Source of the DNA: a bacterium
Lineage (GTDB): Bacteria > JAMCPX01
Length of the DNA stretch: 20,510 nt
Direction of reading: 5' to 3'
Assembly: GCA_021789095.1 (NCBI GenBank)
Contig: JAJYJX010000018.1
Span: 1 to 20,510 of the forward strand
A model generated the notes under the pieces. It worked only from the letters and a program-made list of their open reading frames with translations. It ran no database searches and was not told the origin of the DNA. Both the position numbers and the translations under genes were made by a program. Below, one piece after another: positions 4,838-9,695 of the stretch; within the stretch, counting starts at the first letter, position 1, and each line of letters starts with the position of its first letter.

Positions 4838-4884
4838 ACCCCATTACAAAGTCAGCCTTAATAAAACGGAGGCTTAATACATTC

Positions 4885-4914
4885 TGCGCGGGATTGGCAT
4901 GCCAATCCCGCGCA
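4885..4914. repeat. 30-nt perfect palindrome
   Basis: TGCGCGGGATTGGCA is followed directly by its exact reverse complement TGCCAATCCCGCGCA, with no spacer. The palindrome begins 47 bases after the LolA-like stop. As RNA it would form a strong GC-rich hairpin, but no T-run follows on either strand, so it is not a standard intrinsic terminator. It could be a transcription-attenuating hairpin, a dimer-binding operator or a dispersed palindromic repeat. Confidence 0.85.
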
Positions 4915-4953
4915 CTTCCCGGTGGATCTATAAATGACTTCATTAATGTTTTA

Positions 4954-4973
4954 ACATAACATTTTTGTAATAT
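4954..4973. promoter_or_regulatory. Putative enhancer/operator site upstream of the barrel-permease operon
   Basis: ACATAACATTTTTGTAATAT is an imperfect inverted repeat (ATAACA-N4-TGTAAT). It matches, at 17 of 20 positions, the perfect palindrome at 9217-9236 upstream of the P-II gene. A partly overlapping ATGTT-TT-AACAT repeat lies at 4946-4957. The centre is about 115 bases upstream of the predicted sigma-54 start site, a normal distance for an enhancer-binding activator. The protein that binds it is unknown. Confidence 0.55.
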
Positions 4974-5052
4974 AGTGTAATCTCTTCTAAAAAACATCTG
5001 TATACCCCGAAAACCCGCATCAAAAGCCTATCCTGACTATTTCTGCACATAC

Positions 5053-5068
5053 TGGCATGTACTGTGCT
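5053..5068 (+). promoter_or_regulatory. sigma-54 (-24/-12) promoter
   Basis: TGGCATGTACTGTGCT matches the TGGCAC-N5-TTGC consensus, with the invariant GG (5054-5055) and GC (5066-5067) correctly spaced. The predicted start is near 5079, giving a 13-base leader that just contains the AGGAGGTGA ribosome binding site. It would drive the outer-membrane protein, permease, phosphatase and probably the kinase. Activity requires a sigma-54 activator, for which the repeat at 4954-4973 is the candidate site. Confidence 0.65.
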
Positions 5069-5091
5069 TTTGCAAGCTTTAGGAGGTGACT

Positions 5092-5838
5092 ATGAAACAG
5101 ATAAAGCTTGCGGGGTTTATGATACTGGCATTGATTTTGGGAGCGGCGACCAAGGCGTTTGCAACACCTTCAACCACATATTGGACACCGGATATAATGG
5201 ATATTCAGACATACGGTGTTCCCCATCTTGGCATAGACAACTATTATACGATTGATAACAGGGCAAATGGAGGCAGTGCGTTCCCCACGGATCTGGGACT
5301 TACCATAGGGGTACTGCCGTTTGATAAGGTTCAGATGGAGGTCGGCGTTGACGCAATGGAACCGTCCAAATACCCCTACATGTTCAATGCAAAGATCGGT
5401 AAACCGGAAGGATTGCTGTTCAACGGTTCGCCGGGATGGGGCATCGGCATATTCGACGTGGGTACGGAACCGCAGGTCACGGGGTATGACATAGGCTACG
5501 TGCTCATCGGTAAAACAATACCCTATTTCGGCAGGTTTACCCTCTCTTACTATTACGGCAATCACGGTACACTTGTGAACAGTGACGGTAATCCTGAGAA
5601 TCAGGGCTGGATGATAGCCTGCGACAGAACGATTATCAATATCAACAAAGACTGGATGGATTCCATCGCGCTTGCAGCAGACTATGCATCAGGAAAGAAC
5701 TACATAGGCGGCGGAGGATTCGGGTTGTATTTCAATTTCACAAAGAACATGGATGTCCTCACAGGTCCGGTATGGTTCAACGATGTCAAAATGAACGGCG
5801 ACTGGAAGTGGACCACACAGCTGGACATAAACTTTTAA
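5092..5838 (+). CDS. Putative outer membrane beta-barrel protein, function unknown
   Basis: The 248-residue product has a clear signal peptide (KQIKLAGFMILALILGAATK, cleavage after AFA). The mature part is made of short alternating hydrophobic/aromatic strands separated by Gly/Asn/Asp-rich turns, and it ends in LDINF with a terminal Phe, the usual outer-membrane barrel signature. I do not recognise a named family. A porin-like or channel role is inferred from the fold pattern and from the amino-acid permease encoded 12 bases downstream. The ATG at 5092 lies 3 bases after AGGAGGTGA; an in-frame GTG at 5086 falls inside the ribosome binding site and is rejected. A sigma-54 promoter lies immediately upstream, suggesting expression under nitrogen limitation or a similar stress. 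Confidence 0.75.
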   Translation: MKQIKLAGFMILALILGAATKAFATPSTTYWTPDIMDIQTYGVPHLGIDNYYTIDNRANGGSAFPTDLGLTIGVLPFDKVQMEVGVDAMEPSKYPYMFNAKIGKPEGLLFNGSPGWGIGIFDVGTEPQVTGYDIGYVLIGKTIPYFGRFTLSYYYGNHGTLVNSDGNPENQGWMIACDRTIININKDWMDSIALAADYASGKNYIGGGGFGLYFNFTKNMDVLTGPVWFNDVKMNGDWKWTTQLDINF

Positions 5839-5850
5839 AAGGAGCCACTT

Positions 5851-7410
5851 ATGAATCAGGAAAAAACAAACACACAGGTTAAATCGACACTTGGTTTGAC
5901 AGGTGTAACGGTAAATGCGATGGCACTGATCGCACCGGGCGCGTTCTTGTGGATCACGTATCAGATGCAGGCCGCTGCCACGGCACCGAGCGGCGCATCG
6001 GTGGCGTCCGATATATGGTCGGGCATAGTCTTTGCGCTTATATTGGCGTTCCTTACAGCGCTCTCCTATGCAGAGCTTGCAAGGATATATCCCGAGGCGG
6101 GGTTCGGCAGTTCCTACTATTTCGCGGAAAAAGCGTTTCTTGACCGTGAGAACACGCAACATCACAGATGGGCACGGCTTGCCAAGCTGGTCACCGGATG
6201 GGCTGCACACCTCTTCTACTGGGTATATCCCGGTGTGATGGTCGCCATGATGGCGATACTGATAGGATACATATTTACGGCGTTCACAGGGTATACCATG
6301 ACAAACACGGAGCTTACCGTCATAGCCGTGGCTTTTGCCGCTGTTGCAGGATACATAGCATACCGCGGTGTTACGGGATCGACACTCACGGCCTTTATCA
6401 TTAATGTAGTCCAGTTGATCTCGTTGATCGGCTTCAGCATTGCGGCGATCATCTACAGACTGCACAACCCGGCACACGCCGCAACATGGGCGTTCAGCAG
6501 TGCATGGGACGTGGTCAAGATACACTCTATACAGGGCGTACTGATACAGTCCACGATTGCGATCCTCATACTTGTCGGATTCGAAAGCTCTACTGCGTTC
6601 GCGGCAGAGGCAAAGAACCCGAAACGCGACATCCCGAGGGCCGTGATCATCTCGCTCATTATCCAGGGACTGTTTGCATACCTCTTCGAATATTTTGCGG
6701 CAGGCTACATGGTAAACGAAAAGCTGATCAACACGGCTGTCAACGGCGCTGTCAGCACGACCGTAACAGGCCTGGCTGCGGCCGGGGCATCGAGTGCGCC
6801 AATGGGCGATATGTCCATACTTTTGGGGAACACCCTGCTCCGGGGCATAGGGTTCGGTTTGATGATCACCATAGCTATTACGGTGGCACTTGCAATCCTC
6901 GGAACAACACTTAGTTGTATGAATACGGCTGTTCGTGTAAGTTATGCTATGGCACAGGACAAAGAAATGCCCAATATATTGAACGCCTTGCACGGACGCT
7001 TTGCAACACCCCATAGGGCTATATGGGTGCTCGTTATCGTGTCCTCGCTTATCGCGGCTATCGGCGTACGCTCTGTTGTCGGATTGACAGGCATAACCCT
7101 TGCATCGAACTTCGGTACCTTTGTGCTGTACGGACTGACATGCCTTTGGACCATCGTTGCATTTGCAGAGCATAAGCAATTCAATACAATAAAGCATATA
7201 GTGATTCCGGTACTCGGGCTTATAGCCAATCTGGCGATGCTGGGCGCAATCCTGTACCTGTACATTATAGGTAACAGCGATGCCAAACACGAGGCTTATA
7301 TCTGCTTTGCTATAGCGGGTATATGGGCGATTGCAAGCGCAGTGTACGTGCTGGTCAGCAGCAGGAAGGCCGGCCGGCCGATTATAGGTCTCCAGTATAA
7401 AGGACAGTGA
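5851..7410 (+). CDS. APC-superfamily amino acid permease
   Basis: Inner-membrane amino acid transporter of the APC superfamily, 519 residues, with about 12 hydrophobic helices. Helix 1 contains GLTGVTVNAMALIAPGAFL, matching the G-x-G-type substrate-binding loop region. It is followed by LSYAELARIYPEAGFGSSYY, the conserved loop after helix 2 in this superfamily. Later, GFESSTAFAAEAKNPKRDIP is the strongly conserved helix 6 to cytoplasmic loop motif of amino acid permeases. AAAGGAG precedes the ATG. Its stop codon overlaps the start of the PP2C phosphatase gene (GTGA), so the two are translationally coupled, which is unusual for a permease. Substrate specificity is not readable; uptake of amino acids as a nitrogen source is inferred from the sigma-54 promoter and nearby P-II gene. 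Confidence 0.92.
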   Translation: MNQEKTNTQVKSTLGLTGVTVNAMALIAPGAFLWITYQMQAAATAPSGASVASDIWSGIVFALILAFLTALSYAELARIYPEAGFGSSYYFAEKAFLDRENTQHHRWARLAKLVTGWAAHLFYWVYPGVMVAMMAILIGYIFTAFTGYTMTNTELTVIAVAFAAVAGYIAYRGVTGSTLTAFIINVVQLISLIGFSIAAIIYRLHNPAHAATWAFSSAWDVVKIHSIQGVLIQSTIAILILVGFESSTAFAAEAKNPKRDIPRAVIISLIIQGLFAYLFEYFAAGYMVNEKLINTAVNGAVSTTVTGLAAAGASSAPMGDMSILLGNTLLRGIGFGLMITIAITVALAILGTTLSCMNTAVRVSYAMAQDKEMPNILNALHGRFATPHRAIWVLVIVSSLIAAIGVRSVVGLTGITLASNFGTFVLYGLTCLWTIVAFAEHKQFNTIKHIVIPVLGLIANLAMLGAILYLYIIGNSDAKHEAYICFAIAGIWAIASAVYVLVSSRKAGRPIIGLQYKGQ

Positions 7411-8192
7411 ATCCGCTCTTGCCGAAATTCGATTTCTTCGAGCTGACGGACAAGGGACCGGTCAGGGAAAACAACGAGGACGCAATAAAGTTCTGGCAGT
7501 ACGAAGACGGAGTCCTGATGATCGTGGCAGACGGACTGGGTGCCCACAATGCAGGCGAGGTTGCGAGCACCCTTGCCGTTGAGGTAATTGAAAGAGAGAT
7601 GTCAGGAGCATCAGGTGCCGGGTTGTCAATGAAAAACCTGAAGCATGCGGTACAGCAGGCAAACCTTGAAATCTATCAAAAAGCCATAACAGTGCCGGAG
7701 CTGTATCGTATGGGAGCTGCGACAACGGTCAGCATGCTCACCGGCAGTATGCTATTCACGGCCAATATCGGTGATTGCAGGTTATACATGCTGCGCAATG
7801 GAACATTGACCCAGCTTACAAAAGATCACACATGGGTAGGTGAGCGTGTTCTGTTCGGAATTATTACACCTGAAGAGGCGCGCACGCACCCAAACCGCCA
7901 CCTCCTTACCCGCTATCTGGGATATGAGCTGCTTGCTGCAATAGACTTTTTAAAAATAGATGTTCAGGCAGGTGATGTGATTTTTCAGTGCAGCGATGGT
8001 GCTTATGAAGTACTTCTTGACTCAGAACTGTCTGAACTGCTGCAGACGCACAAACCTGAGGATGCCTGTAAAGCCATTGTTCAACAGGCAAGGGATGCCG
8101 GAGCCTCTGATAATATAAGCATACAGGTACTCTCGATCATTTCATGCGGAGCTCAGGCGGAACAGCCGGTATGGTGGCGGTTCTGGCGGTGA
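7407..8192 (+). CDS. PP2C-family Ser/Thr protein phosphatase
   Basis: Metal-dependent phosphoserine/phosphothreonine phosphatase of the bacterial PP2C (Stp/PrpC) type; soluble, 261 residues. The PPM motifs appear in order: RENNEDA (20-26), VADGLGAHNAGEVAS (40-54), ANIGDCRLYMLRNG (119-132), the TRYLG region (168-172), CSDG (195-198) and ASDN (233-236). The metal-binding aspartates D25, D42, D197 and D235 are all present, so it should be active. The usual GDSR is GDCR here. The start is a GTG overlapping the permease TGA by 4 bases. The protein ends in PVWWRFWR, an unusual Trp/Arg-rich tail that may touch the membrane. The next gene is a Hanks-type kinase, giving a classic opposing pair. Confidence 0.94.
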   Translation: MNPLLPKFDFFELTDKGPVRENNEDAIKFWQYEDGVLMIVADGLGAHNAGEVASTLAVEVIEREMSGASGAGLSMKNLKHAVQQANLEIYQKAITVPELYRMGAATTVSMLTGSMLFTANIGDCRLYMLRNGTLTQLTKDHTWVGERVLFGIITPEEARTHPNRHLLTRYLGYELLAAIDFLKIDVQAGDVIFQCSDGAYEVLLDSELSELLQTHKPEDACKAIVQQARDAGASDNISIQVLSIISCGAQAEQPVWWRFWR

Positions 8193-8248
8193 GGGATGTA
8201 CTGTAATAATTTGACAACCCGTTATCTTTTCGTTAGGTAAAGCCTCAT

Positions 8249-9181
8249 ATGAGTGAACTCGCTCCAGGACAAACGCTTGACCGGTATCAGCTTCTGGACA
8301 TCATAGCCCACGGAGGCATGGCAACAATATTCCGCGCCCGTGATACAGAGAACAACCGGATAGTGGCGCTGAAAGTGCCGCACCTGCAGTATGCAAGCGA
8401 TATCGTCTTCCACCAGCGGTTCCTGCGGGAAGAGCAGATCGGCCTCATGCTTGATCATCCCCGCATTATCAAGATACTGCCTGCAAAAGAAAAGAGCCGC
8501 CTCTACCTCGTCATGGAGTACGTGGAAGGTGAACTGCTCAGCAAAATGCTTGGGCGTGAACACCGGCTGCCCGTCTCAACCGCCGTTGATTTTGCGATCC
8601 AGCTTGCCGATATTCTCATCTACCTGCACGACCGTAACATCGTGCACAGGGATCTGAAACCCGACAACATCATGATCATGCCGGGCAATAAGATAAAGCT
8701 GATAGACTTCGGCATTGCATTTGATGCCGCACTGCGCAAGATCACGTGGTCCGGACTATCCCAGCCCGTAGGTACACCCGATTATATGGCACCTGAGCAA
8801 ATAAAAGGACAGCGCGGAAGCGTGCGTGCGGATATCTACAGCCTTGGCATTATCCTGTATGAAATGCTGACGGGCGAGATGCCGTTTCAAGGTCATAACA
8901 TCTACACGGCAATGCAGGCGAAGATGTTGGAAAACCCGATGCCTCCGAGTAAATTCCGGCATGATATATCCCCGCAGCTCGAGGAGATCATACTGCATGC
9001 GATTGAACGAAACCCTCACGAACGGTTCGGCAAAGTTCAGGAATTCCGCGATGCACTGCTTCATCAGGATAAGGTGGTTGTAACAAACCGTGCTACTCGT
9101 CAGTTCCCAAGATCAAAAATAGCATTCTGGTTATGGAAACTGCGCGCATTTGCAATGGGTATACCGTCCTCAGAAAAATAA
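8249..9181 (+). CDS. Hanks-type (eukaryotic-like) Ser/Thr protein kinase
   Basis: Protein Ser/Thr kinase, 310 residues, consisting almost wholly of a kinase domain (about 13-270). Glycine-rich loop AHGGMATIFRA (20-30), ATP-binding Lys42 in VALKV, helix-C Glu at 61/62, catalytic loop HRDLKPDN (133-140, Asp135), DFG (153-155), GTPDYMAPEQ (175-184) and the late Arg259 are all intact, so it should be active. It has no transmembrane helix and no PASTA or other sensor domain. The C terminus is basic with a hydrophobic/aromatic patch (IAFWLWKLRAFAMG), perhaps membrane-associating. It lies 56 bases after the phosphatase gene and probably shares the operon transcript; a TTGACA at 8211 has no good -10 box. 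Likely targets include the permease and the phosphatase's partners, but this is inference. Confidence 0.94.
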   Translation: MSELAPGQTLDRYQLLDIIAHGGMATIFRARDTENNRIVALKVPHLQYASDIVFHQRFLREEQIGLMLDHPRIIKILPAKEKSRLYLVMEYVEGELLSKMLGREHRLPVSTAVDFAIQLADILIYLHDRNIVHRDLKPDNIMIMPGNKIKLIDFGIAFDAALRKITWSGLSQPVGTPDYMAPEQIKGQRGSVRADIYSLGIILYEMLTGEMPFQGHNIYTAMQAKMLENPMPPSKFRHDISPQLEEIILHAIERNPHERFGKVQEFRDALLHQDKVVVTNRATRQFPRSKIAFWLWKLRAFAMGIPSSEK

Positions 9182-9216
9182 AGATGCCTAAGGGATGCAA
9201 AATAACATAAAAGATT

Positions 9217-9236
9217 ATATAACATTATTGTTATAT
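9217..9236. promoter_or_regulatory. Putative enhancer/operator palindrome upstream of P-II
   Basis: ATATAACATTATTGTTATAT is a perfect inverted repeat with 8-bp arms and a TTAT centre. It is near-identical to the site at 4954-4973. Extra half-sites flank it: ATAACAT at 9202-9208 and ATTATTGT at 9243-9250. Its centre lies about 85 bases upstream of the predicted sigma-54 start site, 30 bases (about three helical turns) closer than at the other promoter. It is AT-rich and lacks a following T-run, so a terminator role for the kinase gene is unlikely. Confidence 0.6.
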
Positions 9237-9285
9237 TTATTCATTATTGTCCCATCATACAACTTATTTCCGAGGGAGGAACAGT

Positions 9286-9301
9286 TGGCACAGATTGTGC
9301 G
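9286..9301 (+). promoter_or_regulatory. sigma-54 (-24/-12) promoter of the P-II gene
   Basis: TGGCACAGATTGTGCG carries the full TGGCAC -24 box and a GTGC -12 box, with GG (9287-9288) and GC (9299-9300) at the required spacing. The predicted start is near 9312, with a 45-base leader to the ATG. Sigma-54 control of glnB/glnK genes is well established, which raises confidence. Confidence 0.78.
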
Positions 9302-9344
9302 TCATTGTATCAATGGATTTTTCGGTCCGGGAAGAAGAACATAA

Positions 9345-9695
<351 letters not shown>

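Follow-up and report, generated by a model that had tools for sequence, protein, structure and literature searches.

Tandem ACA-N4-TGT boxes at sigma-54 promoters suggest a nitrogen-assimilation regulon under a NifA/AnfA-type activator in an uncultured bacterial lineage

Introduction

The window analyzed in this study is a whole stretch of 20,510 nucleotides from a bacterial draft genome of 2.15 Mb, which consists of 203 contigs and is 92% complete. It contains two similar sites, ACATAACATTTTTGTAATAT at positions 4954–4973 and ATATAACATTATTGTTATAT at positions 9217–9236, which are identical at 17 of 20 positions and precede the sigma-54 promoters of a barrel-permease-phosphatase-kinase operon and of a P-II gene, respectively. 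The question raised by this locus is what the repeated element is and which activator would bind it. Control of glnA, amt and P-II usually falls to NtrC, and NifA is normally regarded as a regulator of nitrogenase.

Results

Sites and promoters in the window

The features of the window are summarized in Table 1. The first-pass annotation had described two nearly identical sites of about 20 bp, and both were recovered at those positions. As claimed there, the sites are intergenic, within the gene-free stretches 4838–5091 and 9182–9356, and the distance from the site center to the GC of the −12 box, approximately 103 and 73 bp, agrees with the 75 to 105 bases given. The −24/−12 element TGGCAY-N7-GC is present at both promoters, as TGGCATGTACTGTGC and TGGCACAGATTGTGC; nothing else in the window matches TGGCAYRN5TGC exactly. 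The genome encodes rpoN (PF04552, 1.9e-60 in the profile search), the absence of which had been named as an argument against the sigma-54 reading.

The 20-bp palindromic operator proposed earlier is a real site; however, the operator as a whole comprises two dyads in tandem rather than one palindrome. Both promoters carry two 10-bp dyads each, with the consensus ACA-N4-TGT, at a spacing of 19 bp. The sites reported at first cover one box of each pair, and the boxes at 4940–4949 and 9241–9250 had been overlooked. The offset of 30 bases, which had been taken for nearly three helical turns, arose because box B of the barrel-permease promoter had been compared with box A of the P-II promoter. This argument fails because the whole arrays differ in their promoter distance by 49 bp, not 30.

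Table 1. Boxes, promoters and genes of the two transcription units in the window.
Feature	Sequence	Position	Strand	Evidence
Enhancer box A, barrel-permease promoter	TCATTAATGT	4940..4949	+	19 bp upstream of box B; relatives have a box in register
Enhancer box B, barrel-permease promoter	ACATTTTTGT	4959..4968	+	Best window match, 15.7 bits, relatives-only matrix; core of first reported site
Sigma-54 promoter −24/−12, barrel-permease-PP2C-kinase operon	TGGCATGTACTGTGC	5053..5067	+	Pattern match; kept in 7 relatives
Predicted outer-membrane barrel-like protein		5092..5838	+	No Pfam/NCBIfam match
APC-type amino-acid permease		5851..7410	+	PF13520, 5.6e-23
PP2C-type protein phosphatase		7407..8192	+	PF13672, 9e-16
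Ser/Thr protein kinase		8249..9181	+	PF00069, 1.8e-54
Enhancer box A, P-II promoter	ACATTATTGT	9222..9231	+	Second window match, 14.6 bits, relatives-only matrix; core of second reported site
Enhancer box B, P-II promoter	TCATTATTGT	9241..9250	+	Tandem scan; 19-bp register kept in relatives
Sigma-54 promoter −24/−12, P-II gene	TGGCACAGATTGTGC	9286..9300	+	Pattern match; kept above P-II in 6 relatives
P-II nitrogen regulatory protein		9357..9695	+	PF00543, 1.9e-33

Conservation in related genomes

The permease has orthologues of 83–87% identity in seven of the eight other genomes of the family, and P-II orthologues (78–86% identical) were located in six of the relatives having the permease. Throughout the family, the permease operon starts with the gene of the barrel-like predicted secreted protein, the orthologues of which are 50–65% identical. 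All the barrel and P-II upstream regions read in the relatives show a −24/−12 promoter, and one or two dyads close to ACATTATTGT lie above it wherever the contig extends, with a start-to-start distance of 19 bp where both are clear. The array is retained upstream of orthologues, as had been proposed for checking: boxes are present at the barrel, P-II, glnA and amt promoters of the related genomes read, and the conserved dyads fall within the 30–200 bp upstream of the promoter that is expected of enhancer sites. Since the genomes are drafts, these comparisons have gaps.

In two relatives, G001 (C23) and G008 (C151), the P-II gene directly precedes the barrel-permease operon instead of following it, and each of the two units has its own array (L024, L029). 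The gene order has moved there and the regulation appears to have been kept. A second P-II gene of the window's genome (G000:C176:2032-2367, L043) has no boxes upstream, and its start region in the relatives read shows a conserved GCTTGATCTTTTT stretch instead.

Extent of the proposed regulon

When the 2.15 Mb genome was scanned for the 19-bp tandem, allowing one mismatch, three places were returned, namely the two window arrays (4940–4968 and 9222–9250, one mismatch each) and the glnA promoter on contig C80. All three are nitrogen promoters, so that the array does not occur at the random frequency that would have spoken against it. In the nine genomes of the family, 16 of the 17 tandem places lie in front of glnA, P-II or the barrel operon by our own tally, where the 19-bp spacing had, before the genome-wide scan, come to attention partly through the sites of the window itself. 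Among the patterns searched, the tandem alone proved specific. Some tandem matches with a spacing of 22 bp lie away from nitrogen genes, for example, on G004:C360 and G000:C198. The combination of a promoter and one loose box was rejected as a search pattern, where most matches were due to chance and the controls were about as high.

The C80 tandem lies just below the gene of a sigma-54 activator (G000:C80:207-1823, minus strand), which is directly upstream of glnA. In the relatives, an orthologue of this activator (79–81% identical) is likewise followed by glnA; in G003 two contigs each hold part of the orthologue, and in G005 it is interrupted. The sigma-54 promoter of glnA in the relatives has two to three boxes with spacings of 19 and 22 bp, or 41 bp in one genome with a weak middle box. 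Most relatives have one or two amt genes near glnA, preceded by two boxes about 22 bp apart. In the window's genome, a three-box promoter stands at the end of contig C80; contig C7 opens with the final part of glnA, and amt comes next. The activator gene is on a different contig from the window, which counts against its assignment, and the linkage is deduced from the relatives and the C80 contig end.

The proposed co-regulation of the permease cluster and P-II is supported; however, the regulon is larger and includes glnA and, in the relatives, amt. At the level of sequence, the arrays and promoters are established, as are the conservation of these elements and their confinement to glnA, amt, P-II and the barrel-permease-phosphatase-kinase operon. 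From these, we infer a nitrogen-assimilation regulon under an activator of the NifA/AnfA type rather than the NtrC type, in which binding and activation are predicted.

The candidate activator

The protein encoded upstream of glnA consists of a GAF, an AAA+ and a Fis-type HTH domain and has a GAFTGA loop. It exceeds the cut-off of the NCBIfam nifA model (TIGR01817) with 573.4 versus 528.85 bits. The GAF domain gives 117 bits to Nlh1 (4g3k), the best among the solved structures, 74.5 bits to Nlh2 and 57 bits to a NifA GAF domain. Oxygen-sensing NifA proteins have cysteine motifs, and VnfA and AnfA have presumed Fe-S ligands. The candidate has a single cysteine, and therefore lacks both the NifA cysteine motifs and the presumed Fe-S ligands of VnfA and AnfA. 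In the tree, from which the row adj_L093 was left out owing to a wrong reading frame, the candidate clusters with GAF-type NifA-like proteins, apart from the other activators of the genome. The candidate and the activators next to the permease of other phyla fail to group as a single clade in this tree, which counts against the assignment.

The arrays are probably bound by this NifA-like activator, a prediction drawn from the gene order, from the match with the AnfA site and from the lack of any protein reaching the NtrC model. The earlier claim of one shared site for one sigma-54 activator is supported, as rpoN, the non-random frequency and the conservation at orthologues all hold. The suggestion of an undescribed activator was too strong, since the best candidate is a GAF activator of the NifA family and the dyad overlaps the published AnfA consensus.

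It is unlikely, though of all the alternatives this deserves the most weight, that the boxes are real nitrogen-regulon enhancers bound instead by a response-regulator activator, that is, an NtrC-like protein below the cut-off. NtrC usually governs glnA, amt and P-II, and seven of the eight further sigma-54 activators in the genome have receiver domains by sequence or Pfam. However, none of these eight exceeds the nifA or ntrC cut-off; the best reaches 436 bits versus 558.6, and no protein in the 92% complete genome passes the NtrC model TIGR01818. NtrC sites of the form TGCAC-N7-GTGCA occur in the window at chance level, and it is the NifA-like gene, not the others, that adjoins glnA and, in other phyla, the permease.

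The binding unit

The dyads were compared over a list of 31 promoters, of which those of barrel, P-II and glnA were chosen by orthology and those of amt for carrying boxes. As adjacent boxes place a TGT before an ACA, the binding unit could be TGT-N9/N12-ACA, similar to the NifA site with an altered spacing, with ACA-N4-TGT as a by-product. TGT-N9-ACA is indeed found in 24 of the 31 promoters, but ACA-N4-TGT is found in all 31, the amt promoters having been selected for it. Distant loci space their boxes by 29–32 bp without any N9–N12 pairing, and at the P-II promoters of the relatives, the outer ACA and TGT are more strongly conserved than the inner pair. We consider this unit quite improbable.

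With the ACA-N4-TGT dyad taken as the unit, the boxes sit in multi-copy arrays 30–140 bp above the −24 element, which is the territory of activators and seldom that of repressors, and the dyad fits a known family of sigma-54 activators. Binding by a repressor or an architectural protein is very improbable on these grounds, even if palindromic AT-rich sites are typical of repressors too and the binding of the boxes by any protein is a prediction.

Specificity of the arrays

A matrix was trained on 28 promoters, all taken from the eight relatives and none from the window; it was seeded with exact ACA/TGT matches, and weaker boxes are consequently under-scored. With this matrix, the window sites rank first and second at 15.7 and 14.6 bits, and the next best match has 6.8 bits. 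The window was shuffled 300 times by dinucleotides: any match of at least 14.6 bits appeared in 33 of these shuffles, and among all 300 only one match was located 25–140 bp upstream of a TGGCAY-N7-GC promoter. When the pair of intergenic stretches was shuffled, the score was attained in 112 of 20,000 trials. No 19-bp tandem with one mismatch or fewer occurred in the shuffles of the window. A chance likeness of AT-rich intergenic DNA, for which the composition of the motif and the occurrence of a single box of such score in about one of nine shuffled windows might speak, is negligible in probability, as it is refuted by the in-register conservation across the related genomes and opposed by the genome-wide restriction of the tandem and the intergenic shuffles.

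Arrays beyond the family

The permease was found in 60 loci of many phyla, often with one to four P-II genes and with PP2C and kinase genes. The APC permease (window 5851–8192, loci L061–L114) forms a distinct clade, which is almost always linked to P-II and/or to PP2C with a Ser/Thr kinase. Judging from this linkage, it is predicted to be a transporter linked to nitrogen and equipped with a phosphorylation pair of its own. Several permease loci have an adjacent NifA-like activator of 43–48% identity, and related activators adjoin the permease/P-II cluster in Phycisphaerales, FCPU426 and planctomycete loci. No nifH over the cut-off was found in seven genomes with that adjacency (L066, L068, L074, L075, L079, L080 and L105).

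An unbiased dyad count was performed upstream of 54 intergenic sigma-54 promoters in permease loci of many phyla, some of which are near-copies. ACA-N4-TGT was by far the top 3+3 dyad, with 33 observed versus 1.8 expected, and the extension TAC-N6-GTA was observed 18 times versus 1.7 expected.

In metagenome-assembled genomes of diazotrophs, ACA-N4-TGT lies within 125 bp of the promoter in 6 of 12 nifH promoters (L213, L215, L216, L217, L220 and L223). It is located 123–124 bp above the −24 element in five of these, and five of the six promoters are probably related to each other. TGT-N10-ACA was found in none of the nifH promoters of these diazotrophs. ACA-N4-TGT was not found at the nifH promoter of Nitratidesulfovibrio vulgaris, for which an AnfA-like activator is predicted.

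Discussion

Proposed mechanism and meaning

The sites would be upstream activating sequences of a sigma-54 nitrogen-assimilation regulon, with arrays of 10-bp ACA-N4-TGT dyads spaced by 19 bp in the window, by 19 and 22 bp at glnA and by 22 bp at amt. Dimers of the NifA-family activator encoded above glnA would bind these arrays. Low nitrogen might be sensed via the GAF domain and perhaps P-II, as suggested by the family of the protein. The activator would then assemble on the array, loop to the sigma-54 RNA polymerase and open the promoters, and the uptake of ammonium or amino acids, glutamine synthetase and P-II would be raised together.

A NifA-family activator thus heads glnA, and its probable sites mark an ammonium, glutamine and P-II set in genomes where nitrogenase was not found, apparently replacing NtrC. 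For an uncultured lineage, a concrete regulon open to testing is thereby defined, and a cross-phylum permease-phosphatase-kinase operon is tied to nitrogen limitation. A broader reading, plausible and still on the doubtful side, is that a GAF activator of the NifA/AnfA family, not NtrC, is the general assimilation regulator in many poorly known phyla, acting via ACA-N4-TGT tandems at glnA, amt, P-II and an APC permease-phosphatase-kinase operon that had gone unnoticed. The nif-specific NifA of Proteobacteria with its TGT-N10-ACA site would then be a specialized offshoot of that older function; in several of the diazotroph genomes, the nifH promoters have ACA-N4-TGT instead. Scanning further phyla for ACA-N4-TGT arrays could address whether NifA started out as a regulator of assimilation.

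Comparison with known systems

The first-pass annotation had noted a mismatch to both the NtrC and the NifA consensus, and the counts agree. The arrays have the kinds of targets and the sigma-54 logic in common with the NtrC regulon (glnA, amtB, glnK); however, no protein exceeds the ntrC model and TGCAC-N7-GTGCA is not enriched in the window. The candidate passes the nifA model as in the NifA regulon, whereas TGT-N10-ACA is present in none of the 31 promoters and no nifH exceeds the cut-off in the nine genomes of the family, which are 80–99% complete.

AnfA is among the closest known systems. In R. capsulatus, mutation and binding experiments established the AnfA consensus TAC-N6-GTA, which occurs there as two direct repeats in each promoter (PMC7294313). 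The arrays of the present study likewise consist of two direct-repeat dyads upstream of an RpoN promoter, in tandems of 19 or 22 bp, and the ACA-N4-TGT core nests inside TAC-N6-GTA. The outer T...A bases are less strict than in the AnfA consensus: the full TAC-N6-GTA is found in 13 of the 31 promoters, and the window boxes are AAC-N6-GTA and AAC-N6-GTT, with the outer bases only partly present. AnfA is a GAF-AAA+-HTH protein of the NifA superfamily, and the candidate, whose binding is predicted, is of the same type; unlike AnfA, it has no cysteine redox motif. AnfA drives the Fe-nitrogenase, whereas the genes here are those of nitrogen assimilation in genomes without a detected nifH.

The VnfA sites of Azotobacter vinelandii, GT(T/A)C-N6-GTAC (PMC9542535), also usually come as two motifs per promoter with similar spacing, and the activator superfamily is shared. 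The VnfA motif has flanking G/C bases, and the regulon there consists of the alternative nitrogenase and transport. Nlh1 and Nlh2 of Aquifex aeolicus are GAF-type NifA-like activators, as is the candidate, and for Nlh1 a role in nitrogen assimilation, not fixation, has been speculated (review PMC9866876).
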